From Sphingopyxis sp. H115 (lineage in GTDB: Bacteria; Pseudomonadota; Alphaproteobacteria; Sphingomonadales; Sphingomonadaceae): 64,000 bases of DNA. Both the position numbers and the translations under genes were made by a program. The stretch lies in contig NZ_LNSA01000003.1 in assembly GCF_001468465.1 (NCBI RefSeq), forward strand, positions 1 to 64,000. The letters are read 5' to 3'. The notes under the pieces are model-generated. The model did not search any database and was not told the origin of the DNA. It saw only the letters and a program-made list of their open reading frames with translations. Of this stretch, positions 41,118-52,418 are shown piece by piece (the first letter of the stretch is position 1; every line of letters starts with the position of its first letter).

Positions 41118-42941
41118 TTAAGCCGCGCGCTCGGTCTCTTCTTCGATTTCGATCCGGCTGGTTTTCAGCGATTTTCCGAGCGAACGCCGCGCATCTTGCA
41201 TAGAATCGAAATAGTTGTCAGCGGCGAGACTTAGGCTTTCCGGCTCCAACGCTTTGCTCATGGCTTCCTCGTCCCACTGCTTATTCAACCGTTTCGCGAG
41301 CGCGAACACCACGGCGAGGCCGACGCGTTGAATCATCGAATTGCGCGAATGGCCCCTCGCCATGACCTGCATCACCTCGGGATCCGGCGTATGAGCATAC
41401 TCCTTGATCAACTGGTCAAACATCTCGCCTACCGCCGGATATTTCATATTGATGAACAACTCGCCTGACTTGGGATAGTAACGCCCGGCGCGGCCGATGA
41501 TCTGCTTCTCCTCGATCTGTTCGTTGTCGTCGAGCGGTATAAGTTTGGGCGCCCGTTCGAGATTCTGTGAGAGGCGTGCCATCTGAGCGCCCGAAGGCAC
41601 GATGGTCAGGTCGTCAGGCTTATGCCGCGGCGCCGATGTTCCGCCGCCAGAGCCAGCGCCCGTCGGCGTCGCTCCCCTTCCCGTTCCGGGGTTCACGGAG
41701 AGGTCACCGCCGACTTCAATCTTCGGCGAATTGGACCGCACTCGTAGACGGTTCAGAAACTCCTGCAGCTTGTCGCGTATCTCGTCGCTGGAATCTGCCG
41801 TGTTGGGTGCCATAGCGTGAATGAGGTCAACCAGCCATTCGGGCCGGTGCTCCAATACCTGCACAGCAAAGTCGCTGGCCTCGACCTGCTCCTGCTCGCC
41901 CTCAATATACCGCAGGAACTGACGATATCCTTCCGGACGCACAGCGAAATCGTCGGGGAGTTCGATATGAACCGAGATGTGCTTCGCTCCGAACGGAATT
42001 CCGAACGTGGGCGCCTCGATCGTCCAATAACGACCCGACAGGACCCCGTACATCTCGCCGTGAAAGACAACCGCGCAGGTGCTGACATCGGAGGTGATCG
42101 AGCCGCTGACCGAGCGATTGTGCGAGGTGTCGTTGAACGGTTCGTCGTAGATATAATGGATTTTGATGCCATTCGGCAGTTCGGCGGTCTCGTGGCGGGC
42201 GAAGGTGCCTTCTTCGCGCCGTTCGGAGATCGGCCGGAACCGCCGCGACCCAGTCTTGCGCGCATGTGTACCCTCCATGTGCCGAACTTCAACGTTGCCC
42301 GGCAACGTATAAAAGCGGTGATAAAGATAGTTCGCGAGCCAGAAGCGCTTCTGCAGTGGATCGCCGTCATAGGGATCCTCGACAGTGTTTTGCTCCATCC
42401 GGTTGCCAAGGAGCGTGACCTCGGTCCAGTCGGCATCGAGCGAGCGCTCGCCTTCACTGGCGATCAGCCCCGTCACCTCGACGACATCGCCGATGTCGTT
42501 TCCGTCGGTGTCGAAACGGCGTAGGCGACCGTAGACGCCTTCACGTTCGCACAGGATGGTCTCGTGAACACGGCCGTCCTTGCAGGAGCGGTAGCGCAGG
42601 CCCCGCTTGTTGGACGGGAGCGACGCGACCTTGGCGCCCATTCCGAAATTCTTGTCGAGACCCTTTTCTTTGCGGATGGACGCCGCGAGATTGGTCATCC
42701 GTGCAAGCTCTTCCTCATCCATCCCAGGACCGTTGTTCCAGATCGTGAGCTTGGGGGTGCCTTGAACGTCGCTGACAAGGAATTCTACCTTTCCGTCCTC
42801 AGGCGCATCAGCGGCCGCTTCAAGAGCGTTTTTGAACAGCTCGCGGACCATCATGACCTTGGGACAGCGTTCGATCGTGCTGGTGACCAGAAAGTCTTGG
42901 TCATCGACGCGAATGGCTGAAACCTGACTATCGGCGCTCAT
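41118..42941 (-). CDS. GHKL (Hsp90/MORC-like) ATPase
   Basis: 607 aa, no signal or membrane helix. The N-terminal ATP-binding fold is clear: N-box RELFKNALEAA (about 33-43), G1 IWNNGPGMDEEEL (67-79, with Asn in place of the usual first Asp of DxGxG), and G2 KNFGMGAKVASLPSNKRG (97-114). The rest is a large middle region and a helical C-terminus (MARGHSRNSMIQRVGLA). Not MutL, HtpG or gyrase. AAGGAGAG precedes the ATG. It forms an operon with the small upstream gene (nine bases apart) in a region of restriction and nucleotide genes, so an anti-phage or stress role is likely but unproven. Confidence 0.75.
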   Translation of the reverse strand: MSADSQVSAIRVDDQDFLVTSTIERCPKVMMVRELFKNALEAAADAPEDGKVEFLVSDVQGTPKLTIWNNGPGMDEEELARMTNLAASIRKEKGLDKNFGMGAKVASLPSNKRGLRYRSCKDGRVHETILCEREGVYGRLRRFDTDGNDIGDVVEVTGLIASEGERSLDADWTEVTLLGNRMEQNTVEDPYDGDPLQKRFWLANYLYHRFYTLPGNVEVRHMEGTHARKTGSRRFRPISERREEGTFARHETAELPNGIKIHYIYDEPFNDTSHNRSVSGSITSDVSTCAVVFHGEMYGVLSGRYWTIEAPTFGIPFGAKHISVHIELPDDFAVRPEGYRQFLRYIEGEQEQVEASDFAVQVLEHRPEWLVDLIHAMAPNTADSSDEIRDKLQEFLNRLRVRSNSPKIEVGGDLSVNPGTGRGATPTGAGSGGGTSAPRHKPDDLTIVPSGAQMARLSQNLERAPKLIPLDDNEQIEEKQIIGRAGRYYPKSGELFINMKYPAVGEMFDQLIKEYAHTPDPEVMQVMARGHSRNSMIQRVGLAVVFALAKRLNKQWDEEAMSKALEPESLSLAADNYFDSMQDARRSLGKSLKTSRIEIEEETERAA

Positions 42942-42950
42942 GCTCTCTCC

Positions 42951-43181
42951 TTAGAGTTTGAACCGGGCTCTCCGACGGGCATTCGGTCCTTGGAACCGCG
43001 CCTCGACCTTCCCGACCTCGTCCCGCAATGCCTTCAGGATCCTCTTCACCTCGGCTTCGTCCCAAGCGTAGAGCTGCGTATTCGAGAGATTGCCGATCCG
43101 CTCGATCGCTTCGAGAGCCTTGTCCGTGCGATTCTCTGCCAGCTCCCGAAACTTGCCCCTCTTCTTGTCAGTATCCGCCAT
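42951..43181 (-). CDS. Small charged partner of the GHKL ATPase
   Basis: 76 aa from ATG 43181, with AGAAGG six bases upstream. Highly charged and helical (KKRGKFRELAENRTDKALEA, then RIGNLSNTQLYAWDEAEVKR), ending in a basic ARRRARFKL that could bind nucleic acid. No signal peptide. It is the first gene of the operon and probably a subunit or regulator of the ATPase. Confidence 0.6.
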   Translation of the reverse strand: MADTDKKRGKFRELAENRTDKALEAIERIGNLSNTQLYAWDEAEVKRILKALRDEVGKVEARFQGPNARRRARFKL

Positions 43182-43458
43182 TTTTAACCTTCTGAAGCAT
43201 GCATGATTCGCATTATGCCTACGCGAAAATATCATATTCGTCTAATACTGTGGAAAATATGATGCGCTGCCTTACATAATTTGCGGAAAAATTGGTGCAA
43301 ATTTCCTCAATATGGATCGCAATCTTATGACACACTCCCCAATGGATGGCCCATAGAAAGGCACAAGGCGGAACGCTCCACAGCGGCAATGAGAGGATGA
43401 CCCGAGCATTTTTAATAGTTATGGAAACGGTGCAGCGTCAGAACGGTGAGATCAGCAA

Positions 43459-44187
43459 TTGCAGAACAGATATGTTGGCGACGCCGGCGACTATGTAAAG
43501 CTCGCCCTCCTTCGCGCGTTGTCGCCAGGCTTGAAGCTTGGCGTTGCTTGGTATTTGTACCCAGATGAGGGCCACAATGATGATGGGAAGCACATCGCGT
43601 ATCTGAAAAACGCGTCACATTGGCGCCATCTCGACCCCACGCTGTTTGATCATCTTGGCAGTATCGTGGAGTCGGGTCGAAATGTTGCGGCGATCGAGCG
43701 CAGGTGCGGATTGGAGGCCATGTATTCTAGCGAATTGCTAGATCACCAAAAGCTTCATTCTCGACTCCGGTCAGATGCACGCGCAGACTGGTTCGCCCGT
43801 GTGAACCAACAAATGCAGAACTGCGAGCTTGTCTTTGCCGATCCAGACAATGGCCTAACCGACGACCAGCCAGCACGTCGTAGCAAGCCTCGCTTCGGGA
43901 AGAGCCTGCCTATCACAGAAGCGCTTACCCTCGCGGCAGGCCGATCCGCGCTGATCTACCATCATAATAGCCGGTTCAAGGGTGGCCATGATCTTGAAGT
44001 CGATCATTGGCTTGGCAAGCTCGGCGAGAACAGTCTCGCCATCCGTGCCAACGCCTACAGCTGCCGAACGTTCTTTCTCGTCAATCCCACAAAGCTTTTG
44101 GTGGAACGGGCGCGCGCCTTCTGCGCGACCTGGCGCGATCACAAAGTTCGCCTGCACAAAAGAGCTGGCTCGTCCGCCTCGTCCTAA
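43459..44187 (+). CDS. Conserved protein of unknown function with FADPDNGL motif
   Basis: 242 aa. The start is TTG 43459 behind GGTGAG; the product begins with NRYVGDAGDYVKLALLRAL, the typical opening of this widespread uncharacterised family. Other family marks are GVAWYLYPDEGHNDDGKHI, CELVFADPDNGL and ALIYHHNSRFKGGHD. The Asp-rich DPDNG and late His residues suggest a metal-dependent enzyme, perhaps a nuclease. It precedes the nucleotide operon by 217 bases and may or may not belong to it. Confidence 0.65.
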   Translation: MQNRYVGDAGDYVKLALLRALSPGLKLGVAWYLYPDEGHNDDGKHIAYLKNASHWRHLDPTLFDHLGSIVESGRNVAAIERRCGLEAMYSSELLDHQKLHSRLRSDARADWFARVNQQMQNCELVFADPDNGLTDDQPARRSKPRFGKSLPITEALTLAAGRSALIYHHNSRFKGGHDLEVDHWLGKLGENSLAIRANAYSCRTFFLVNPTKLLVERARAFCATWRDHKVRLHKRAGSSASS

Positions 44188-44403
44188 AATTGGCTCGGCG
44201 CCCTCCGATTTCCCATCTGTCCGATCGAGCCTAAGTGGCGTAACATAGTGGAGTCTCCCTCAACTTATGCAGCTCGGCCGAGCCGCGTCGGACAAATTTG
44301 AGTGAGATAGTTTTTGCCTTCCGTTGGAGCCAAGGGTTTTTGTCAGGATGATCATCAAGCCATTCCTGACCTCAAAACTGATCTGGACGAGGGTAATCTG
44401 CTG

Positions 44404-45786
44404 ATGCTGCTCGACCTTTTCTCTCCGACTGCGGAGAATAGCAGATTGGCCATTACCGATCAGGAATCGAGGGTGGCTGCGAAACCTGCTCATCAACGGC
44501 CCAAATCTAGTGCCGATCTGACGCCGCTCTTCGTTCATCCTAACGAAGTGCTGTTTCTCGATATCGAAACTACTGGGCTGAGCCGCTATTATGACTATGT
44601 AACGCTCATCGGCTTCGCCATCGGCGGCAAATATGAGGTCGTTCTTGCGGGAGAGGATCCTCAGCCATTTCTTAATGCGCTCGCAAACGCTCACAGTTTG
44701 GTCACATTCAACGGCTCGGGATTCGACCTCGCATTTTTGGAAGATCTGATCGGAGAGATCCGGTGGCCCGCGCATCATGTCGATCTTCGATATAGTTGCC
44801 GGTCTATGGGGCTATCGGGAGGCCAGAAAGAGATAGAACGGATTCTGGGTATCGATTGCCGCGCCGGTGTTGAGGACGTCGACGGGGCAGGCGCGGTTAT
44901 TCTCTGGCACCGCTACATGCGCGGCGATCGGATCGCTTTGCGGCAACTTATCGAATATAATCGTGCGGACATCCAAGCGATGCAGCTAATTCTCGATCAC
45001 GTAGTTCGAGCGCGGACGACTAGCGACCTATTCTTACGGCCAGATCAGTTGCGAGGCTTATGCCTCGCGCGATTGAAACGATCAGGTTTCGCAAATGCCG
45101 ATGCAGTCCTGCCCCCGCCTCCAACAGATCTTCGCAGCGTCGTTCACTTTATGGACTTGTTCGGAGGCACGCCTGCTGAGACCGCAACCGTGGTCGGCCT
45201 CGATCTCACCGGGTCGGCAGAACGGCTTTCCGGCTTTTGCCGCATGCGCGGATGCGAAGCCGAGACAACTACATTAGGCGACGACTCTGCGATTATCGAT
45301 GCCGTCTTGGCGTCTGAACCGGATCTGGTTTCGATCGACTCACCGCTCTGCTTGCCGGTGGGCAGGACTAAGGTGACAGACGACGACCCCGCCCGAAATG
45401 AGGCTGGAATTTTGCGAGTCAGCGAGCGGATACTCAAACGGAGGGGCATCAACGTCTATCCCTGCCTGTTGCCGAGTATGCAAAAGCTTACCGAGCGCGG
45501 AATCAGGCTGGCGGCCGCCCTGCGCAATCAGGGCTTGCAGGTGATCGAATGCTATCCTGGTGCTGCCCAAGATATCATGGGGATCCCACGCAAGGGTGCG
45601 GGTGAGGAATGGTTGAAGCTAGGACTGTCGGAATTTGGCGTCACCGGACGGTTCAAAAACGACAAGCTCACGCATGACGAACTTGATGCGATTACCTGTT
45701 CTCTTGTAGGGTTTTTCCATCTGGCTGGCCGCACCGAAGCGCTCGGCGGAGAAGGCGAAGAACCGATGCTAGTACCAAAGATATGA
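44404..45786 (+). CDS. RNase H-like (YprB-type) domain fused to DUF429
   Basis: 460 aa from ATG 44404; a TTG at 44314 would add 30 residues. The first half is a YprB/RNase H-like 3'-5' exonuclease fold: FLDIETTGLSRYY (51-63, first acidic pair), TFNGSGFDLAFLED (101-114) and EYNRADIQAM (184-193). From about 262 it is a DUF429 domain: VVGLDLTGSAERLSG, LVSIDSPLCLPVG, RRGINVYPCLLPSMQKLT and LQVIECYPGAAQDIMG, with LTHDELDAITCSLVGF near the end. DUF429 is also of RNase H fold and a predicted nuclease. The stop overlaps the kinase start (ATGA). As first gene of the operon it may cut nucleic acid or sense a nucleotide product. Confidence 0.75.
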   Translation: MLLDLFSPTAENSRLAITDQESRVAAKPAHQRPKSSADLTPLFVHPNEVLFLDIETTGLSRYYDYVTLIGFAIGGKYEVVLAGEDPQPFLNALANAHSLVTFNGSGFDLAFLEDLIGEIRWPAHHVDLRYSCRSMGLSGGQKEIERILGIDCRAGVEDVDGAGAVILWHRYMRGDRIALRQLIEYNRADIQAMQLILDHVVRARTTSDLFLRPDQLRGLCLARLKRSGFANADAVLPPPPTDLRSVVHFMDLFGGTPAETATVVGLDLTGSAERLSGFCRMRGCEAETTTLGDDSAIIDAVLASEPDLVSIDSPLCLPVGRTKVTDDDPARNEAGILRVSERILKRRGINVYPCLLPSMQKLTERGIRLAAALRNQGLQVIECYPGAAQDIMGIPRKGAGEEWLKLGLSEFGVTGRFKNDKLTHDELDAITCSLVGFFHLAGRTEALGGEGEEPMLVPKI

Positions 45787-46316
45787 GCCAAGCCCGCGTG
45801 ATCGTGATTAGCGGTGAAGTGGCCGCAGGGAAGACAACCGCGGCGAAATTGCTTCGCAGCCAAGGGTTCCAATATGCACGCATAAGTCAGGCAATTCGGA
45901 CGCGCTGGGACGGCTCATTTGGGGAAAAGCCGCCCCGAAGCTGGTACCAAGACATGGGGATGCAGCTGCATCGCGAAATCGGGCAGTGGGCGCTGTGCCA
46001 AGAGACCCTCGATCTCATACCCGACCCCTCGGTGGATTTCGTGATCGACGGCGCCCGATGGCATGAGGACATATCTTTTTTCAGGACGCAATTTGGATCG
46101 GATATGCTACATATCCACCTAGTCGCATCCGCCGACGTGCGCAAAATGCGCTTCGACGCGCGCGAAAAGGATGTCTCTTTCGAAGAGGCTGATGCAGACG
46201 AGGTCGAGCTTGAGGTCAAAGAGCTGAACCTGAATGCCGACATGGTCTTCGATAATAGTACGAACGATCTCTCCAAGCTGGAAGAGTTTATCAATTTCGT
46301 CATGAAAAAGGTTTGA
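45783..46316 (+). CDS. P-loop nucleotide kinase-like protein
   Basis: 177 aa. Walker A VISGEVAAGKTTAAK at residues 8-22. The layout is that of small NMP/dephospho-CoA kinase-type enzymes: a strand VDFVIDGARWHEDISFF in the Walker B place, an Arg-bearing lid region KMRFDAREKDVSFEEADADE, and a closing ADMVFDNSTNDLSKLEEFI. It would phosphorylate a (deoxy)nucleoside monophosphate or similar. Coupled with the preceding gene by ATGA, and three bases before the PurZ-like gene. Confidence 0.7.
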   Translation: MSQARVIVISGEVAAGKTTAAKLLRSQGFQYARISQAIRTRWDGSFGEKPPRSWYQDMGMQLHREIGQWALCQETLDLIPDPSVDFVIDGARWHEDISFFRTQFGSDMLHIHLVASADVRKMRFDAREKDVSFEEADADEVELEVKELNLNADMVFDNSTNDLSKLEEFINFVMKKV

Positions 46317-46319
46317 ATC

Positions 46320-47372
46320 ATGCCCGTTAGCATCGTCGTCGGTGGCCAATATGGATCCGAAGGCAAAGGCAAGGTAGCGCTAGCGCTAGCGCGGCAGGAA
46401 CGCGGCGAAGCTGTGGTGGTGAGGGTCGGCGGCCCCAATTCCGGTCATACCGGTTATGACCGAAGCGGGCGGCGCTGGGTATTGCGACAGCTCCCCGTTG
46501 CAGCGGTCGACGGAGTTCGCCTGATCGTGCTCCCCGCGGGATCTTATCTTGATCCCGACCTGCTACTTGAAGAAATCGCATCGCTGGGCCTTGCCCCGGA
46601 GGATGTTGCCATTAGTCCGCAAGCGCGCGTCATTACATCTGGACATATCGACCATGAGGTGAACTCCAAAATCAACCAGTCCATCGGCTCAACCGCGACT
46701 GGTACCGGTGCTGCGGTCGTCGCGGCCATTCAGCGGGGCGCGCCAGATGCGGGCCCGGCCGCTGCCTTCGCTAAGAATGACGATCGACTTAAACCCTATG
46801 TCAAATCCACGATTGACCTCTTGCGCCAAGCTCTGGACGAAGGTCGCCGGGTCATCATCGAAGGAACGCAGGGCTTTGGGCTCTCTCCGCTCCATTCCCC
46901 GCATTGGCCCAATGTGACGAGCCGCGACACCAGTGCAGCGGGCTTCCTATCGGAAGCCGGCCTGGCGCCCACTGATGTCGACGATGTAACACTTGTGCTG
47001 CGATGCTGGCCCATTCGGGTATCGGGAAACTCGGGGCCGTTGGAAACCGAGACCGATTGGGAGACGGTAACGCGTGAAAGCGGAGCGCACATCGATCTCA
47101 GCGAATTTACGAGTGTTACCAAGAAATTACGAAGAGTCGGCCGCTTTGAATTCGATATCGCGAAGCAAGCGATCGCGGTGAACATGCCGACGAGGATCGT
47201 CCTCAATCACCTCGATCATGTCGATTGGCGCTGCCACGACGGCGCGCTTACAGGTGCAGCGCAGGAATTCATTCACTTTGTCGAGCGGGGGCTGAACCGA
47301 CATGTCGATTGGGTTGGCACGGGTGTGGACAGCTTTGTCAAGCTGGGCCTGCTATCTGCTCTTCGGGCCTAA
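46320..47372 (+). CDS. PurZ-like adenylosuccinate synthetase homologue
   Basis: 350 aa, against about 430 for housekeeping PurA. The GTP-loop is VVGGQYGSEGKGKVALAL: residue 13 is Ser where PurA has the catalytic Asp (GQWGDEGKGK), as reported for the phage PurZ enzymes that join Asp to dGMP on the way to 2-aminoadenine. The second catalytic His is kept (GGPNSGHTG, His43), and the IMP-loop counterpart IEGTQGFGLSPLH plus TSRDTSAAGF are present. It may therefore act on a guanine deoxynucleotide and not IMP. Substrate is inferred from that residue and from the length; a second PurA paralogue with lost activity is the alternative. Confidence 0.75.
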   Translation: MPVSIVVGGQYGSEGKGKVALALARQERGEAVVVRVGGPNSGHTGYDRSGRRWVLRQLPVAAVDGVRLIVLPAGSYLDPDLLLEEIASLGLAPEDVAISPQARVITSGHIDHEVNSKINQSIGSTATGTGAAVVAAIQRGAPDAGPAAAFAKNDDRLKPYVKSTIDLLRQALDEGRRVIIEGTQGFGLSPLHSPHWPNVTSRDTSAAGFLSEAGLAPTDVDDVTLVLRCWPIRVSGNSGPLETETDWETVTRESGAHIDLSEFTSVTKKLRRVGRFEFDIAKQAIAVNMPTRIVLNHLDHVDWRCHDGALTGAAQEFIHFVERGLNRHVDWVGTGVDSFVKLGLLSALRA

Positions 47373-47385
47373 GCCTGTTCCCGCC

Positions 47386-48330
47386 GTGCCGAAAGCCCAG
47401 CCAGCCGATGCCCGCTCTTTGGACCCGGCAACGACGAAGAAAGACTTCGATGATCGAGCGGATTGGTGGGAATTCACGGATCCTTTTGATGACTTGGACC
47501 CGGCGCTACTGACGGCAGAACAGATCAACAATTATGCGCGTGTTACCGGTCTTATTCGGCCTTTTGATGAGAAGCTGTTGAAGGGAGCCACCTACGAGAT
47601 CGGCGTAGGGGGCAATGTATATTCTTGGGATGACAAGAAAAAGAAGAAGGTCTTACCGGTGGCAAATGTCGGCGAGAGCGGAATCGTTCTCGAGGCGAAC
47701 TCGATCACGTTTGTCGAGACCGACGTGGAGTTTCGCCTACCGCAATATATCGCGATGCGCTTTAACCTTCATATCAAGCTGGTTCATCGCGGTCTCCTGC
47801 TCGGCACAGGCCCGATCGTCGACCCGGGTTTTCGGGGACGCCTGCTTATCCCCCTGCACAATCTGACGAGTCAGCCGCTTACCATCAAACAGGGCGAGAA
47901 AATCGTCTGGATTGAATTCACCAAAACCTCGTTTGGCCAGTCATCGGATCGCGAGGGCTATCGCAAAGAGCTCCCGAACTTCAAAGTCTTTCCGAAGAAC
48001 AAAAGATGGATCGAGGCGGAGGCCTACCTACAAAAAGCCAACTCGGGCAATCCTATCATGAGCTCGATTTCTGGATTTATTTCCAAAACTAACAAACAAT
48101 TAAAGAGAAACACCAGATGGGTGAATACGCTCGGAATTACGGGCTTCATAAGCATTGCGCTGACCGTGTTTGGCGGTCTCTACGCAAGCTTGACCGTCCT
48201 CAACAATGCATGGACCGCTGTGAACACAGACGTTGCTCAGCGCAAGGAGCTAGAGGCCCGGCTACAACGTCTTGAACGATGCTTAAAGACCGCGAAGGTT
48301 ACGAACAAACCGCCCACACCCGACTGCTGA
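47386..48330 (+). CDS. dCTP deaminase/dUTPase-fold protein with C-terminal membrane helix
   Basis: 314 aa from GTG 47386; ATG 47302 is possible but would overlap the previous gene by 71 bases. Residues 40-185 follow the Dcd/Dut fold: LLTAEQINNYARVTGLIRPF, KGATYEIGVGG, then TGPIVDPGFRGRLLIPLHNL and the final QGEKIVWIEF. The Ser-Ser-x-x-Arg region is replaced (HIKLVHRGLLLG) and the catalytic Glu of the DPGWEG motif is Arg150, so deamination as in E. coli Dcd is unlikely. A membrane helix at about 248-272 (ITGFISIALTVFGGLYASL) and a short coiled coil (QRKELEARLQRLERCL) follow. Possibly a membrane-tethered nucleotide sensor. Confidence 0.7.
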   Translation: MPKAQPADARSLDPATTKKDFDDRADWWEFTDPFDDLDPALLTAEQINNYARVTGLIRPFDEKLLKGATYEIGVGGNVYSWDDKKKKKVLPVANVGESGIVLEANSITFVETDVEFRLPQYIAMRFNLHIKLVHRGLLLGTGPIVDPGFRGRLLIPLHNLTSQPLTIKQGEKIVWIEFTKTSFGQSSDREGYRKELPNFKVFPKNKRWIEAEAYLQKANSGNPIMSSISGFISKTNKQLKRNTRWVNTLGITGFISIALTVFGGLYASLTVLNNAWTAVNTDVAQRKELEARLQRLERCLKTAKVTNKPPTPDC

Positions 48331-48416
48331 TCGCTGAGTTCTAGCGGGCGTCGATTGAATTGATGTTCGGAGTTTGCGCTTGGCGCCCATTGGCGCGGCG
48401 AGCAAACGCCGATCGT

Positions 48417-49118
48417 CTATAGCCAGAGATGAAACAGACTTATCGGCCCTGGCTCGCAGCTATAACTATCCCCCACATATCTGAAATCCCGTCGATGCGA
48501 CGACTGCTGGGCAGTCGGGTGGAGATCGGGCCTTGCTACGGGGTGGGAAAGCGTCTGCATTGTGTCTGAACGCGCGCGCGCGCATTTGATGAGATGGGGT
48601 GCGAGCCTACTCGTCACGCTCGAGCCATCGCGGACATAGGCTAGCATGATCGCCGATCGGTGCGCCCAAGCATATTCCCCGGCAACAAAGCGCGCGATGC
48701 CCTCTTTGCAGTATAGGCTAACACGCTTTGCGTTCGGATGGTCGATGATCTTGCACTCGACTAAGAATGGGAAATTGCGGTTGCCGACGGTGAATACGAG
48801 CGACAGATCGGGTCGCCCTTCGATTTTGGCGCCGTTATAGCTCATCGACTCCCGGCCCCGGTGCACTGAGTGGACCAGATCCTTCCAAAGCTTCTGTGTT
48901 TGGCAGAAATGATTGAGTCGTGGCTCGAGGAGGGCGTTGACCTCAGCCTCGTCTCCGCTAAGCAAAGCCGGAGCTCCATTGGCGAGAAGCTCATGCCATG
49001 CCAGCGAGATCGTCTCGAGGATGATCTTCAAATGACGATCGTCGATCTGAACCAGAGGCAAACGCACACCGCTGGTTAGCTCCGCTATATGGTTGGGGCG
49101 CGCCTGCTTGACCGCCAT
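48417..49118 (-). CDS. PD-(D/E)xK restriction endonuclease-like protein
   Basis: 233 aa from ATG 49118, directly after the methyltransferase stop. Residues 96-125 show GAKIEGRPDLSLVF (Asp104) and FPFLVECKIIDHP (Glu121-x-Lys123), the PD-(D/E)xK nuclease core. An upstream helix has EPRLNHFCQT, a possible extra acidic residue. The C-terminal ~60 residues look less protein-like and may include a frameshift. Together with the methyltransferase it would form a restriction-modification pair. Confidence 0.7.
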   Translation of the reverse strand: MAVKQARPNHIAELTSGVRLPLVQIDDRHLKIILETISLAWHELLANGAPALLSGDEAEVNALLEPRLNHFCQTQKLWKDLVHSVHRGRESMSYNGAKIEGRPDLSLVFTVGNRNFPFLVECKIIDHPNAKRVSLYCKEGIARFVAGEYAWAHRSAIMLAYVRDGSSVTSRLAPHLIKCARARSDTMQTLSHPVARPDLHPTAQQSSHRRDFRYVGDSYSCEPGPISLFHLWL

Positions 49119-49119
49119 A

Positions 49120-52100
49120 TTATGTAGTGCGCCTGCCCGACAGAAAATCGACATTATCCCAAATAATGCGCCGCGCAACGAGACGCGCTTGGCTAACCGA
49201 CCAATAGCGCGCCTGATTAAGCCGGCCTACGAAGAGGCAATCCAATTGCTCATCCCAATACAGGAGTTCGCTTGCGGACATCGTGTCTGCCATATGCCGC
49301 ATCGCTTCCATAAGCGGCCGATCGGCCGACGCCTTTCTCTCCCCTGCGCCGGCTGCAACCGCGATAAATTGCCAAGGCGACAAAGGCGGCGCCTCCACAG
49401 CCGTGATAGTAAACTGGCGACCGAAATTCTCACCCCAAGGAGCTAGCTCAGCTTCCAACCGCTCGGAGAAAGCTGCTCGAGCAAGTGCGCCAACGGGCGC
49501 CCGAGCTGCGATTCGGTTTTTGCCGAAGGGGAGCGCAAAGGCGAGTGTATCGGAGATCACCTGAATGTCATCGGGTGTGAGATTGAACAGTGACCCCACC
49601 CACTCGTCGACTTTCTGCCAAACCTCGGGTGTTTCGGCGTCTGCGAGCTCAGCAAAAAGCGCGGTAGCGCATGCGCGATTCTCTGCCGTTAGCGTCTCGA
49701 AAGGCAGCAACGGAGCTTCTTGGATAACAAATTTCTCGACCGGGTCGCGTTCAACACCGAAGCCCCCGCTTGTGATCAAGGCGTGCCAGAGCGCGATTTT
49801 ACTACTGATGATCAGGCAAAGATATTTGACCAGATCGGCGGCCGATTCCTGCCGATGCGCGGTGTAGCCGTAATAGCTTTGGTTGAATGTCAGGTCTTCT
49901 AGCGAAACGGCTGTCTTGATCCGCCCGTCTCTGGCGTCGGGGGATTTTTTCACTAGCAGCATCGGCCCAGTATAAAGGCTCAGCGAGCGCCGCTGATCGA
50001 GACGCGGCATGCCCAGATCACGAAACAGTCGGAAGCTCGACGTGTCCAAGAGCACGCCGCGAAACGCCTCGTGATCCAGTAAAGGCAAGTCGAGCATTTT
50101 CTCCGCGGAATAGCCGGGCAGATGGTCTTCAAGGGGATTGGGCCTGCTACCTTCAAAGAGATTTCCGAAGCCTTTTCCGGCGCAGTTCGGTTGGTTGACA
50201 GTACCGCCATGCAGACCCTGCCAATATTCTCCAAATGTCGAAAATTGCGTCGCGGACAATCGCTCGAAGATGTCGAGGTCGAGCCGCGTGCCCCGAAACA
50301 GGATTTTCAGTAGCTCGGGTCTTTGTCTTAGCTCGTCGATTGCGATGGTTTCGGTATTGGTCGGGTCGATCCTCCACCCTCCGCTGGCAGTAAGTGGGCC
50401 TTCTAGATGGGGGCTGACGTACCGAAAAGCGGCGCCCGCGGCGGAGCACCGATTGCGAGCGAAGAACAAACAAAATGGCGCAGCCACTTTGGGCCAAACC
50501 TGCGATTGGCGAACCTCTGCGCCGTTCACCACACCGGTAATATCGATAGCCCGGCAGAGCGCCGCAAGCGCCTTGTCCATGCCTTCGCCACGTTGGAATA
50601 GCAGGCGACCATGCAAGGCGAAGGCGATCTGTCCGTCCGGTTTCGCCCATTCCATGGCGCGCCAGACAAATGGCAAATCAAGCGCTTCGTTGGGAAGCGG
50701 CGCCGCGATCCGGTCGTTCAATCGTTCGCGGGCGATCTGAGCTGTTCGCTTGATGACCGATGGCCAGTCGGCGAGACCTGTTGCGGAAGACCAGGGCGGG
50801 TTCCCGATCACCAGATCATATTGGCCAGCGTGCTCGGGGCCTACTTGGTCGCCCAAACTTCCGAGGCTGCCATCTGCTGCCTCGTCGCTCTGACCGAGTT
50901 CAAAAATGACGGTCTGACGAAGATCGCGGCTGAACTTGAGCTTCTCGACAGGCTTGGGTGCAGCATCGAGTTCGATCGAAATTAAATAAAGACCAAGTGC
51001 CGCGAAGCGCAGCGCGGAGTCATTGATATCAAATCCGCGGATTTGATCGTAGAGAATCTGGCGGAGAGCCTTCGTATCGGGCCGTTTGCCATCATGCTGC
51101 CAACGCTCTTTTACGATTTGCCGAAACGCGGTGATCAAAAAAACTCCCGCCCCCGCCGCCGGGTCCAATATTTTCGCCGTGTGCGCTACGCCTTCGCGCC
51201 GCAAGGTCGCGAACGTCGCATGAACCATAAGATCGGCGATGTGCCTTGGGGTATAGTAGCTGCCCTCCTTACGCTGCTTGTCCTTCTGGTGCCGGCCCAA
51301 GTAGCGCTCATAAGCTTGACTCAGAACCCCCACGGGGATGTGTGCAAAGTCGAGCCTTGCCCAATCCTCCGCCCATTCGATCGGCAATTGCCCGTCCGGG
51401 GCCCGCCGCATGATGTTTCCAACGGTCTGGAACGCCGCTTCCGGAATGGAGTGGATACTGGCATCCGACAGCGGCAGGAAATCCCCGTTGAACGTTTCAT
51501 CAAGCCAGACCGACACCTTTGCCGCGCTTGCAGCGCTGTCGAAAAGGTGGTTGATTCCGCCATCGCAAGCTTGGCTAACAGTGCCGGGCAACAGCCCGCG
51601 ATCAGCCAAGAAGCGCGTAAATAGCGCTCGCCCCACTAGCGAAATAGCGTCCCCGTCGTCGATTTTCAGAGCCACGAGGGCATCAAGCGCTGCCGTCAAA
51701 AGGTTCAAAATTACGTCGCTGATCCAGACCTGACGCGACGACGCATTCGGCCGTGTATTAGCGATGAATGGGATGACCATGCCAAGGTCGTCCAGCTCTT
51801 CGGAAATTGCCCGCGTTGCGTCGAAGGATTCGTTGTCCAGGCCGACGCTGTGAAAGCTGAGCCTTCCCATCTGGAGCACCGCGATGTACGGGGCGTCGCC
51901 GCGCATGGCGACCAAGCGCCGGAGACGCGCCAATCCCTCCGGGTCACCCGTCACCGCGTCGCCATCGACAAGCATAAACAATGGCCCGCTCTGCCACTCG
52001 TACACGCCCATCAGTGCCGAAATTGGATCGGTCTTCCCTGTTGATCGTGCTGCTGACAGCGTGGCGTAAGGCAAGAGGTGAACTTGGTCACCCTCATCAT

Positions 52101-52164
52101 CAAAGTTGAGGAAGCAGGCTGGGTCCCCCCCGTGCTCCGCTATGATATCCTTGAACGGGATCAT
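49120..52164 (-). CDS. N6-adenine DNA methyltransferase (type IIG/Eco57I-like)
   Basis: 1014 aa. A large N-terminal region precedes the methyltransferase core: KEGSYYTPRHIADLMV (299-314), motif I KILDPAAGAGVFLITAF (331-347), RGFDINDSALRFAALGLYL (376-394) and motif IV YDLVIGNPPWSS (449-460), the NPPW catalytic loop of gamma-class N6-adenine methylases. The C-terminal half is a likely target-recognition region. No own nuclease motif is obvious; the next gene supplies one. A 20-codon leader frame ends five bases before its start. Confidence 0.85.
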   Translation of the reverse strand: MIPFKDIIAEHGGDPACFLNFDDEGDQVHLLPYATLSAARSTGKTDPISALMGVYEWQSGPLFMLVDGDAVTGDPEGLARLRRLVAMRGDAPYIAVLQMGRLSFHSVGLDNESFDATRAISEELDDLGMVIPFIANTRPNASSRQVWISDVILNLLTAALDALVALKIDDGDAISLVGRALFTRFLADRGLLPGTVSQACDGGINHLFDSAASAAKVSVWLDETFNGDFLPLSDASIHSIPEAAFQTVGNIMRRAPDGQLPIEWAEDWARLDFAHIPVGVLSQAYERYLGRHQKDKQRKEGSYYTPRHIADLMVHATFATLRREGVAHTAKILDPAAGAGVFLITAFRQIVKERWQHDGKRPDTKALRQILYDQIRGFDINDSALRFAALGLYLISIELDAAPKPVEKLKFSRDLRQTVIFELGQSDEAADGSLGSLGDQVGPEHAGQYDLVIGNPPWSSATGLADWPSVIKRTAQIARERLNDRIAAPLPNEALDLPFVWRAMEWAKPDGQIAFALHGRLLFQRGEGMDKALAALCRAIDITGVVNGAEVRQSQVWPKVAAPFCLFFARNRCSAAGAAFRYVSPHLEGPLTASGGWRIDPTNTETIAIDELRQRPELLKILFRGTRLDLDIFERLSATQFSTFGEYWQGLHGGTVNQPNCAGKGFGNLFEGSRPNPLEDHLPGYSAEKMLDLPLLDHEAFRGVLLDTSSFRLFRDLGMPRLDQRRSLSLYTGPMLLVKKSPDARDGRIKTAVSLEDLTFNQSYYGYTAHRQESAADLVKYLCLIISSKIALWHALITSGGFGVERDPVEKFVIQEAPLLPFETLTAENRACATALFAELADAETPEVWQKVDEWVGSLFNLTPDDIQVISDTLAFALPFGKNRIAARAPVGALARAAFSERLEAELAPWGENFGRQFTITAVEAPPLSPWQFIAVAAGAGERKASADRPLMEAMRHMADTMSASELLYWDEQLDCLFVGRLNQARYWSVSQARLVARRIIWDNVDFLSGRRTT

Positions 52165-52169
52165 TTGGT

Positions 52170-52232
52170 TCAGCGCAGTAGATTGGGGCGGAATCGGGAA
52201 TGAAGCACGGTTTTGCCGCTACCGTCGCTCAT
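52170..52232 (-). promoter_or_regulatory. Possible leader peptide before the methyltransferase
   Basis: A 20-codon frame (ATG 52232, TGA 52170-52172) with an upstream GGGGG stops five bases before the methyltransferase ATG. It could couple or dampen translation of the enzyme. Evidence is position only. Confidence 0.25.
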
Positions 52233-52418
52233 GGTGCCCCCTGAAAATTGCGGCGACGCCCTGCCGCTCGTAATCAGTTATCGCGAGCGGACTCTTCATG
52301 CAACCGCAATGATCTAAAACCGGCTCGCGCATCGGCAGAATGACTGCTTTGAAGCGCATCCAAATCGATGATCGAACGACCGACTTCGGGCGCAAAGCTG
52401 ACAGTACCCTTGAGCCGG

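Follow-up and report, generated by a model that had tools for sequence, protein, structure and literature searches.

A conserved bacterial operon pairing a PurZ-type enzyme with a membrane DCD/dUTPase-fold protein, a candidate anti-phage system in Sphingopyxis

What use might a bacterium have for a PurZ-type enzyme, and why should it encode one beside a membrane protein with the fold of dCTP deaminases and dUTPases (the DCD/dUTPase fold)? PurZ has been described from phages and from four archaeal sequences, with no mention of bacterial operons (PMC12884076, available text). The question is raised by four genes, termed A to D, in a 64,000-nucleotide stretch of Sphingopyxis sp. H115 (contig NZ_LNSA01000003.1, positions 1 to 64,000, forward strand), the whole of which we call the window. 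Relatives of these genes were found together in many bacteria, with a C protein that carries the distinguishing residues of PurZ and a D protein whose fold is kept and whose catalytic positions are changed. The reading that we favour, if only tentatively, is that this conserved operon acts as an anti-phage system in which a deoxynucleotide made by the PurZ-type enzyme works through D. The operon is laid out as follows.

Gene A, 44404..45786, plus strand: ATG start (the longest open reading frame, ORF, begins at TTG 44314); DEDD-type 3'-5' exonuclease plus DUF429.
N-terminal RNase_H_2 domain of A (DEDD-type 3'-5' exonuclease), ~44551-45003, plus strand: Pfam match, 1.9e-29.
C-terminal DUF429 RNase H-like domain of A, ~45169-45783, plus strand: DUF429 matched by Pfam in relatives.
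Gene B, 45783..46316, plus strand: P-loop nucleotide kinase, AdkA-like.
Gene C, 46320..47372, plus strand: homologue of PurZ-type succino-2-aminodeoxyadenylate synthetase, with the Ser13 codon at 46356-46358.
Gene D, 47302..48330, plus strand: DCD/dUTPase-fold protein, altered at its catalytic positions, with a single membrane helix plus a helix at the C terminus; start codon uncertain.
Membrane helix of D, ~48145-48201, plus strand: hydrophobic 19-mer from residue 282.

The genes are as tightly coupled as a preliminary description of this DNA, made from its letters alone, had stated. A and B, which are read in different frames, share an ATGA overlap, a gap of 3 bases separates B from C, and the longest ORF of D overlaps C by 71 bases. 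Given later in-frame starts for D at TTG 47314, GTG 47323, TTG 47335 and GTG 47386, the true overlap of C and D may be smaller.

Loci were collected through C alone. Contigs were scanned with a profile from an alignment of eight C sequences and with the patterns GQ[FY]GSEGK and R[VP]GG[PSC]NSGH; the best 80 of 266 relatives were kept, and L066 was dropped as the same region as L063, leaving 79 loci. (The two contigs with this region are filed under Dehalococcoidia and Candidatus Binatia, a sign that a bin has been misassigned.) By record title the 79 loci are spread over about ten phyla, and many of them come from metagenome bins. D was found near C in 77 loci, counting L051, where it is a fragment of 137 amino acids encoded on the opposite strand, and L082, where a contig end cuts it. 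The DUF429 part of A (A2) was present in 72 and its exonuclease part (A1) in 65. A2, B, C and D occurred together in 71 of the 79, which rules out a chance neighbourhood, and in 64 loci the genes follow one another as A-B, C, D along a single strand. Thus the genes keep together rather than being scattered, as the idea of a four-gene operon supposed. The pairwise distances of the proteins were correlated (Mantel r = 0.63 for A2-C, 0.52 for C-D, 0.37 for A2-D and 0.66 for C and the accessory protein U described below; 0 of 999 permutations as high), which fits a jointly inherited unit, a pattern that shared host phylogeny could also produce.

The C protein of the window matches Adenylsucc_synt in Pfam (7e-45) and the PurZ family phrog_1211 (1.9e-75). 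With the NCBIfam PurZ model NF038379 it scored 238.9 bits and so fails the cut-off of 300; its score with the archaeal adenylosuccinate synthetase model NF003295 was nearly equal, 238.3 bits, and likewise under the cut-off of that model. A duplicated housekeeping PurA is ruled out as its origin: the host genome encodes a separate full-length PurA on another contig (C8), and C groups with PurZ. The Ser at position 13 that had marked it as PurZ-like is indeed present in the window and in 77 of 84 aligned copies (Gly in 5, Asp in 1, from L020, and a gap in 1), a share that is biased, as Ser13 was itself part of a scan pattern. In PurZ this Ser, or Gly in some archaeal members, replaces the catalytic Asp13. 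A second hallmark, the PurZ-specific insertion behind the conserved Val, is equally well kept, with G236 in 83 and W247 in 81 of the 84; the host PurA has a gap there and the Pyrococcus protein 2d7u neither G nor W. V234 is common to PurZ and PurA and does not discriminate. In the PurZ of S-2L, Ser13 is placed close to the 2-amino group of dGMP, and a Val is drawn toward the 2' position of the ribose by the insertion (PMC8342488, available text).

A tree was built from 96 sequences, among them 81 system copies, five phage PurZ0 and a single PurA and a single archaeal sequence. The node joining the system copies with PurZ0 received a support of 100, and host PurA and 2d7u fell outside it; support was 69 for the grouping of the 81 bacterial copies, and 56 for the node that joins system and PurZ0 to other PurZ. 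From Ser13, the PurZ insertion and this sisterhood with PurZ0, dGMP is the predicted substrate of C, whose residues would make it, in agreement with the preliminary description, unlike a housekeeping PurA using IMP. Asp299, a guanine-binding residue in PurA, is kept in 83 of the 84 copies and was considered as a sign of GTP as the energy donor. That argument was dropped, because the PurZ0 of Arthrobacter phage Wayne and Gordonia phage Ghobes have the same Asp while PurZ0 prefers ATP (PMC12884076, in the portion available). As a separate observation, the Asp13 homologue of L020 (8001-9008, on a rhizobial plasmid) lies among genes annotated as folE, purB, queE, IMP dehydrogenase, nitrile hydratase alpha and queC, a cluster that looks like a 7-deazapurine nucleoside pathway.

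The near-universal partner D was described beforehand as a membrane-tethered dCTP deaminase/dUTPase fold, and both parts of this were borne out. Window D matches Pfam DCD at 6.8e-11, and its AlphaFold (AF2) model (pLDDT 88.8, pTM 0.73) has as its best Foldseek match in the PDB 2qlp, TMt 0.79; the fold is nearest to bifunctional dCTP deaminase-dUTPase. A hydrophobic helix follows the DCD domain in 68 of 69 aligned D proteins, 65 of them recognized by script. The others are those of L084, L086 and L106, which have three hydrophobic segments but not the anchor motif on which the script relied; the D of L108 has no helix. The active site is altered. At the positions equivalent to Ser111, Arg115 and Glu138 of Dcd, presumably its catalytic residues in this numbering (E138 variants appear in PDB titles), window D has Ile, His and Pro, with the presumed Dcd of the host (L156) as reference. 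The 69 D proteins have Ile or Val at the first position in 67 cases, His or Tyr at the second in 68 and Pro at the third in all, and window D reached only 45 bits against NCBIfam dCTP_deam, where the cut-off is 92.8. A motif of its own is conserved instead, in the region VDPG/PLHN, with the Asp of VDPG in 68 of 69; R153, N155, G164, P175, P184 and N187 are invariant.

PurZ0 phages encode a dUTPase-fold protein of their own, DutZ, in 98 of 98 genomes (PMC12884076, available text). The motifs GRSS and GFGS[TS]G, kept in the DutZ of Ghobes and Wayne, are missing from window D. The catalytic residues and the lost motifs rule out that D is an ordinary dCTP deaminase or a DutZ, and together with the conservation of its own motif they suggest a membrane protein that probably binds nucleotides and is unlikely to function as a deaminase or a classical dUTPase. 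Of the parts compared, D also diverges most, with a mean p-distance of 0.673 compared with 0.604 for U, 0.500 for C and 0.399 for A2. Apart from the loci with C, DCD-fold-like proteins with C-terminal hydrophobic helices were seen in six C-less loci (L028, L029, L030, L031, L032 and L034), of which L030 adjoins HMUDK_hel (PF18723), L031 adjoins a RES gene and L034 is followed directly by ThyX; these may be sister systems.

For the first gene, the call of an RNase H-like/DUF429 fusion held fully for the RNase H-like part (RNase_H_2, 1.9e-29). DUF429 had no Pfam match in window A at E up to 1, and was matched in 25 of 52 aligned relatives. Searched against the PDB, the A-B profile found the exonuclease MrfB (2.1e-6), an ancestor of diDNase (0.0006) and diDNase (0.0068); MrfB is a repair exonuclease. 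An AF2 model of a fused A-B relative from L038 (pLDDT 86.8) matched NrnC weakly (TMt 0.54-0.56) and, for its kinase part, the archaeal adenylate-kinase-related protein 3lw7 (TMt 0.86). Gene B was correctly taken for a P-loop nucleotide kinase: it matches the deoxynucleoside monophosphate (dNMP) kinase family phrog_139 at 5.8e-7, as well as Pfam AAA_18 at 3.9e-5, under the Pfam cut-off, and weakly NCBIfam NF041025 (0.0078). The PADLOC models gave only weak matches here, PDC-S44 for A (1.3e-4), and VakA (4.5e-6, residues 5-27, the P-loop) and dCTPase (1e-4) for B. A2 and B form a single ORF in 71 of 72 relatives, and are separate genes in the window and in L059. A1 went undetected in six loci whose proteins have 908-928 amino acids, from Lachnospiraceae (L047), Prevotella (L067), Fibrobacteria (L069), Bacteroidales (L104), Spirochaetaceae (L112) and Clostridia (L113); L047, the only one of these put to Pfam, has HHH_8 and PHP domains in its place.

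The composition of the unit varies around C. A-B is missing in seven of the 79 loci: L042, L050, L054 and L092 consist of C-D-U, L093 and L108 of C-D with a divergent HD gene, and L079 looks decayed and starts near a contig end (L088 looks decayed too). Plasmid L018 likewise has C-D and an HD gene and lacks A-B. Two rhizobial plasmids (L019:7449-9741 and L021:7446-9739) encode a kinase-C fusion followed by DUF7002 in place of D, with a YfbR-like HD gene nearby. HD genes were found near C only in L018, L019, L021, L093 and L108; those of L018 and L019, the two put to Pfam, are YfbR-like and under the Pfam cut-off. The annotated neighbours of the kinase-PurZ fusion include SIR2 and AbiEii in L021, and AbiJ-NTD4 and RelA/SpoT in L019. 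A literature search for DUF7002 gave no paper, and the papers matched by DUF429 look from their titles to concern DUF4297.

Eighteen of the 79 loci have a second kinase close to C; the two that were tested are PF01712 deoxynucleoside kinases. Relatives of gene U, which precedes the operon in the window, lie near C in 23, and U and the second kinase never share a locus (hypergeometric 0.0008, without correction for relatedness). U had no match in Pfam (window protein) or PADLOC (window protein and 23 members), and its sole PDB match, a designed helix bundle at 0.0012, was judged spurious; it is a probable optional accessory of the system. Twelve of the 79 loci (L036, L049, L057, L074-L077, L080, L083, L087, L097 and L105) have an RlmJ-family methyltransferase gene, checked with Pfam in L080, close to the operon, which possibly marks an insertion hotspot or else an accessory part. 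The surroundings in the window are these.

Gene U, 43459..44187, plus strand: 242 amino acids, family unknown; probable optional accessory.
Mobile block of ~10.6 kb, 41826..52402, no strand assigned: carries U-A-B-C-D and an N6/Eco57I-type methylase gene; a 99.98% identical copy lies elsewhere in the genus.
GHKL-type ATPase gene and a 94-amino-acid gene, 41118-43235, minus strand: upstream of the operon.

A phage-type integrase gene also lies upstream, and downstream of D, on the opposite strand, follow a gene for 253 amino acids and the methylase gene, whose window copy matches Pfam N6_Mtase. The 94-amino-acid gene has relatives in L083 and L094. The mobile region that had been suspected around the operon could be delimited: the block from 41826 to 52402 recurs at 99.98% identity in another genome of the genus, G1129, with unrelated flanks, and the rest of the window had no match in the 60 kb taken around that copy. 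At the left edge of the G1129 copy, an IS21-like element, named by eye from two ORFs, cuts the GHKL ATPase gene. The block is recently mobile; both it and gene U are additions to the preliminary description.

The system is rare and patchy. Of 396 genomes of the order, the D profile picked out 13, with a strong match in 7, and the A-B profile found 3 of 80 genomes of the genus and 2 of 398 of the phylum, one of the two being the host genome, a possible undercount as two candidates per genome were scored. In 385 genomes of the class the D profile matched in 95, strongly only in G000 and G707 (next best 1.7e-9); the remaining matches resemble ordinary Dcd, and the class scan was therefore not used for prevalence. 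D had no match at 1e-5 in 50,697 phage records. A scan of viral contigs with the single D protein, able to detect close relatives only, yielded a single weak match, dUTPase-like and without a membrane helix.

Defence genes as neighbours, a point that the preliminary description had raised, were found in part of the loci. Genes resembling those of type I restriction-modification (RM) systems flank 15 of the 79 system loci and none of 20 control loci, a weak contrast as the query proteins came from system loci and 64 of the 79 have no such genes. The controls were loci around weak D-profile matches taken as ordinary Dcd, all of them alphaproteobacterial. The labels HsdM, HsdS, HsdR, YgjP, Int, HipA and TcmP were assigned by eye, and PADLOC REase_I was confirmed in 3 sampled neighbours. 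At 1e-10, 195 PADLOC families were counted from 134 sampled neighbours (of 266 available, from 68 loci) and 48 from 134 control neighbours, tallies that count families, not proteins; the control families are largely one reverse transcriptase, plus dGTPase and PDC-S20.

The anti-phage reading draws on the D-C pairing in 77 of 79 loci, the A2-B and kinase-C fusions, the second kinases and HD genes found near C, the PurZ hallmarks of C, the altered site of D and its status as the most variable component, and the rare, patchy and mobile occurrence, at times beside RM-like genes and with a higher PADLOC family tally among the neighbours than among the controls. In the mechanism that we propose, C would join aspartate and dGMP to N6-succino-2-amino-dAMP (dSMP), which host PurB could convert to dZMP. 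B, with the second deoxynucleoside-kinase-like enzyme of other loci, may supply the substrate or phosphorylate the product, and the exonuclease of A might release dGMP for it from phage DNA or from DNA that is damaged. At the membrane, the DCD-fold part of D would bind what C makes, a compound that healthy cells would lack, D thus serving as a putative membrane receptor or anchor; its helix would then disrupt the membrane or recruit effectors. The functions suggested by the preliminary description, making an unusual deoxynucleotide or sensing and disrupting phage nucleotide pools, are plausible.

Several points weigh against this reading. Five C copies have Gly instead of Ser13, and one D retains Ser at the Ser111-like position. 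The RM contrast, as said, is weak, and PADLOC 2023 had no match for C, D or U of the window or for 69 D and 23 U members. PurB did not recur with the operon, which makes the final nucleotide a guess, and D may bind something other than the product of C.

We explored four other explanations. The product could itself be a poison, with dZTP, formed through host PurB and kinases, entering phage or host DNA, where it would disturb replication or mark the DNA for A, D being a mere membrane scaffold. The PurZ hallmarks, the dNMP-kinase-like B with the PF01712 kinases, and the exonuclease domain of A (HHH_8 and PHP instead in L047) would all suit this, and a phage Z-genome cluster by itself is able to bring Z into the DNA of bacteria (PMC8342488, available text). 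However, no polymerase and no constant dATP-removing enzyme was found in the recurring neighbour families, as judged mostly by eye, and the near-universal partner D is left unexplained, so that we regard a poison as unlikely. A role outside defence, as a mobile pathway for a modified nucleoside, for nucleotide salvage or for DNA repair, strikes us as quite unlikely: the unit is rare, patchy and on mobile DNA, sometimes beside restriction genes, its most variable protein is D, and no recurring export or tailoring gene was seen by eye in the neighbour clusters, even though a related PurA homologue with Asp13 sits in the 7-deazapurine-like cluster of L020 and the exonuclease domain of A resembles that of the repair exonuclease MrfB.

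Alternatively, D might be an altered membrane nucleotide hydrolase, similar to DutZ or a dGTPase, which together with the drain of dGMP by C would starve the phage of purine deoxynucleoside triphosphates. Its fold, nearest to bifunctional dCTP deaminase-dUTPase, the near-constant Asp of VDPG (68/69) and the DutZ of PurZ0 phages (PMC12884076, available text) speak for such depletion, but the replacement of Ser111, Arg115 and Glu138 (Ile/Val 67/69, His/Tyr 68/69, Pro 69/69) and the loss of GRSS and GFGS[TS]G from window D make it improbable. Least credible is that a bacterium captured a phage Z-genome cluster of which this is the remnant. C is sister to phage PurZ0, yet the scans of D against phage records and viral contigs and the absence of the DutZ motifs largely rule this out, and the C proteins of bacteria, 81 in the tree, form a group of their own, if with a support of just 69.

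No description of such an operon was found in the literature searched, which was judged by titles and the starts of abstracts and covered subscription journals and preprints thinly; this agrees with the earlier statement that no system with this gene set was described. Anti-phage dCTP deaminases and dGTPases are centred on deoxynucleotides like the operon, and their models weakly match B and not D. The known enzymes of these systems are soluble and catalytic and have a deaminase fold other than DCD/dUTPase, whereas in D a DCD/dUTPase fold goes with an altered active site. The phage PurZ0 branch (PurZ0 and DutZ with or without DmtZ, as in Wayne and Ghobes) shares with C the Ser13 and the PurZ insertion and, like the operon, encodes a dUTPase-superfamily protein near PurZ (PMC12884076, available text). 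The preliminary description had named DatZ or MazZ with a polymerase as the partners of phage PurZ, a list that is incomplete in view of DutZ (PMC12884076, available text); D is nevertheless not DutZ. In contrast to that branch, the operon has no polymerase gene seen beside it, has an extra nuclease-DUF429-kinase protein, and is bacterial and mobile, while D, compared with DutZ, has lost the dUTPase motifs, gained a membrane helix and has no match in phage records. The set that marks a phage Z-genome cluster, a polymerase and DatZ, MazZ or DutZ with PurZ, was not seen in the recurring neighbour clusters, judged mostly by eye.

In logic alone, the operon resembles Kongming (KomABC), in which dITP made from dAMP binds KomB and leads to NAD depletion (PMC12948488, available text): an enzyme makes a non-canonical deoxynucleotide from a purine dNMP, kinases raise it to the triphosphate, and a binding protein triggers an effector. 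The operon differs in its enzymes, in the predicted amination of dGMP rather than deamination of dAMP, in having its own kinase, and in having a membrane protein where Kongming depletes NAD. Among the window genes Pfam found neither a SIR2 nor an adenosine-deaminase family, and no search was made with Kom proteins. Clover also defends through the nucleotide pool and nucleotide signals, as proposed here, with no shared family recognized and the sequences uncompared (PMC12265719, available text). Since the phage Z-genome cluster, Dcd and the PADLOC models all fail to fit at the level of the system, we call it new; its single enzymes belong to known families, and the comparison with Kongming and Clover is one of logic only.

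A broader proposal, which we consider doubtful, is that the operon represents a new class of bacterial immunity based on an alarm signal, a 2-amino- or succino-deoxyadenosine nucleotide that a cellular PurZ produces and a catalytically dead DCD-fold membrane receptor reads. The D-like loci with HMUDK_hel, ThyX and RES genes would then be sister systems that respond to other modified nucleotides, and phage PurZ0 and the bacterial PurZ would have a common origin in phage-host conflict. At the level of the locus, the operon is a candidate defence system with three proteins (C, D and U) that have no PADLOC 2023 model. It is also a compact candidate for a new nucleotide signal or poison and bears on the origin of PurZ0. 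If PurZ indeed has a wide bacterial branch, nearly always with a membrane DCD-fold partner, then the making of non-canonical purine deoxynucleotides would extend to cells as well.

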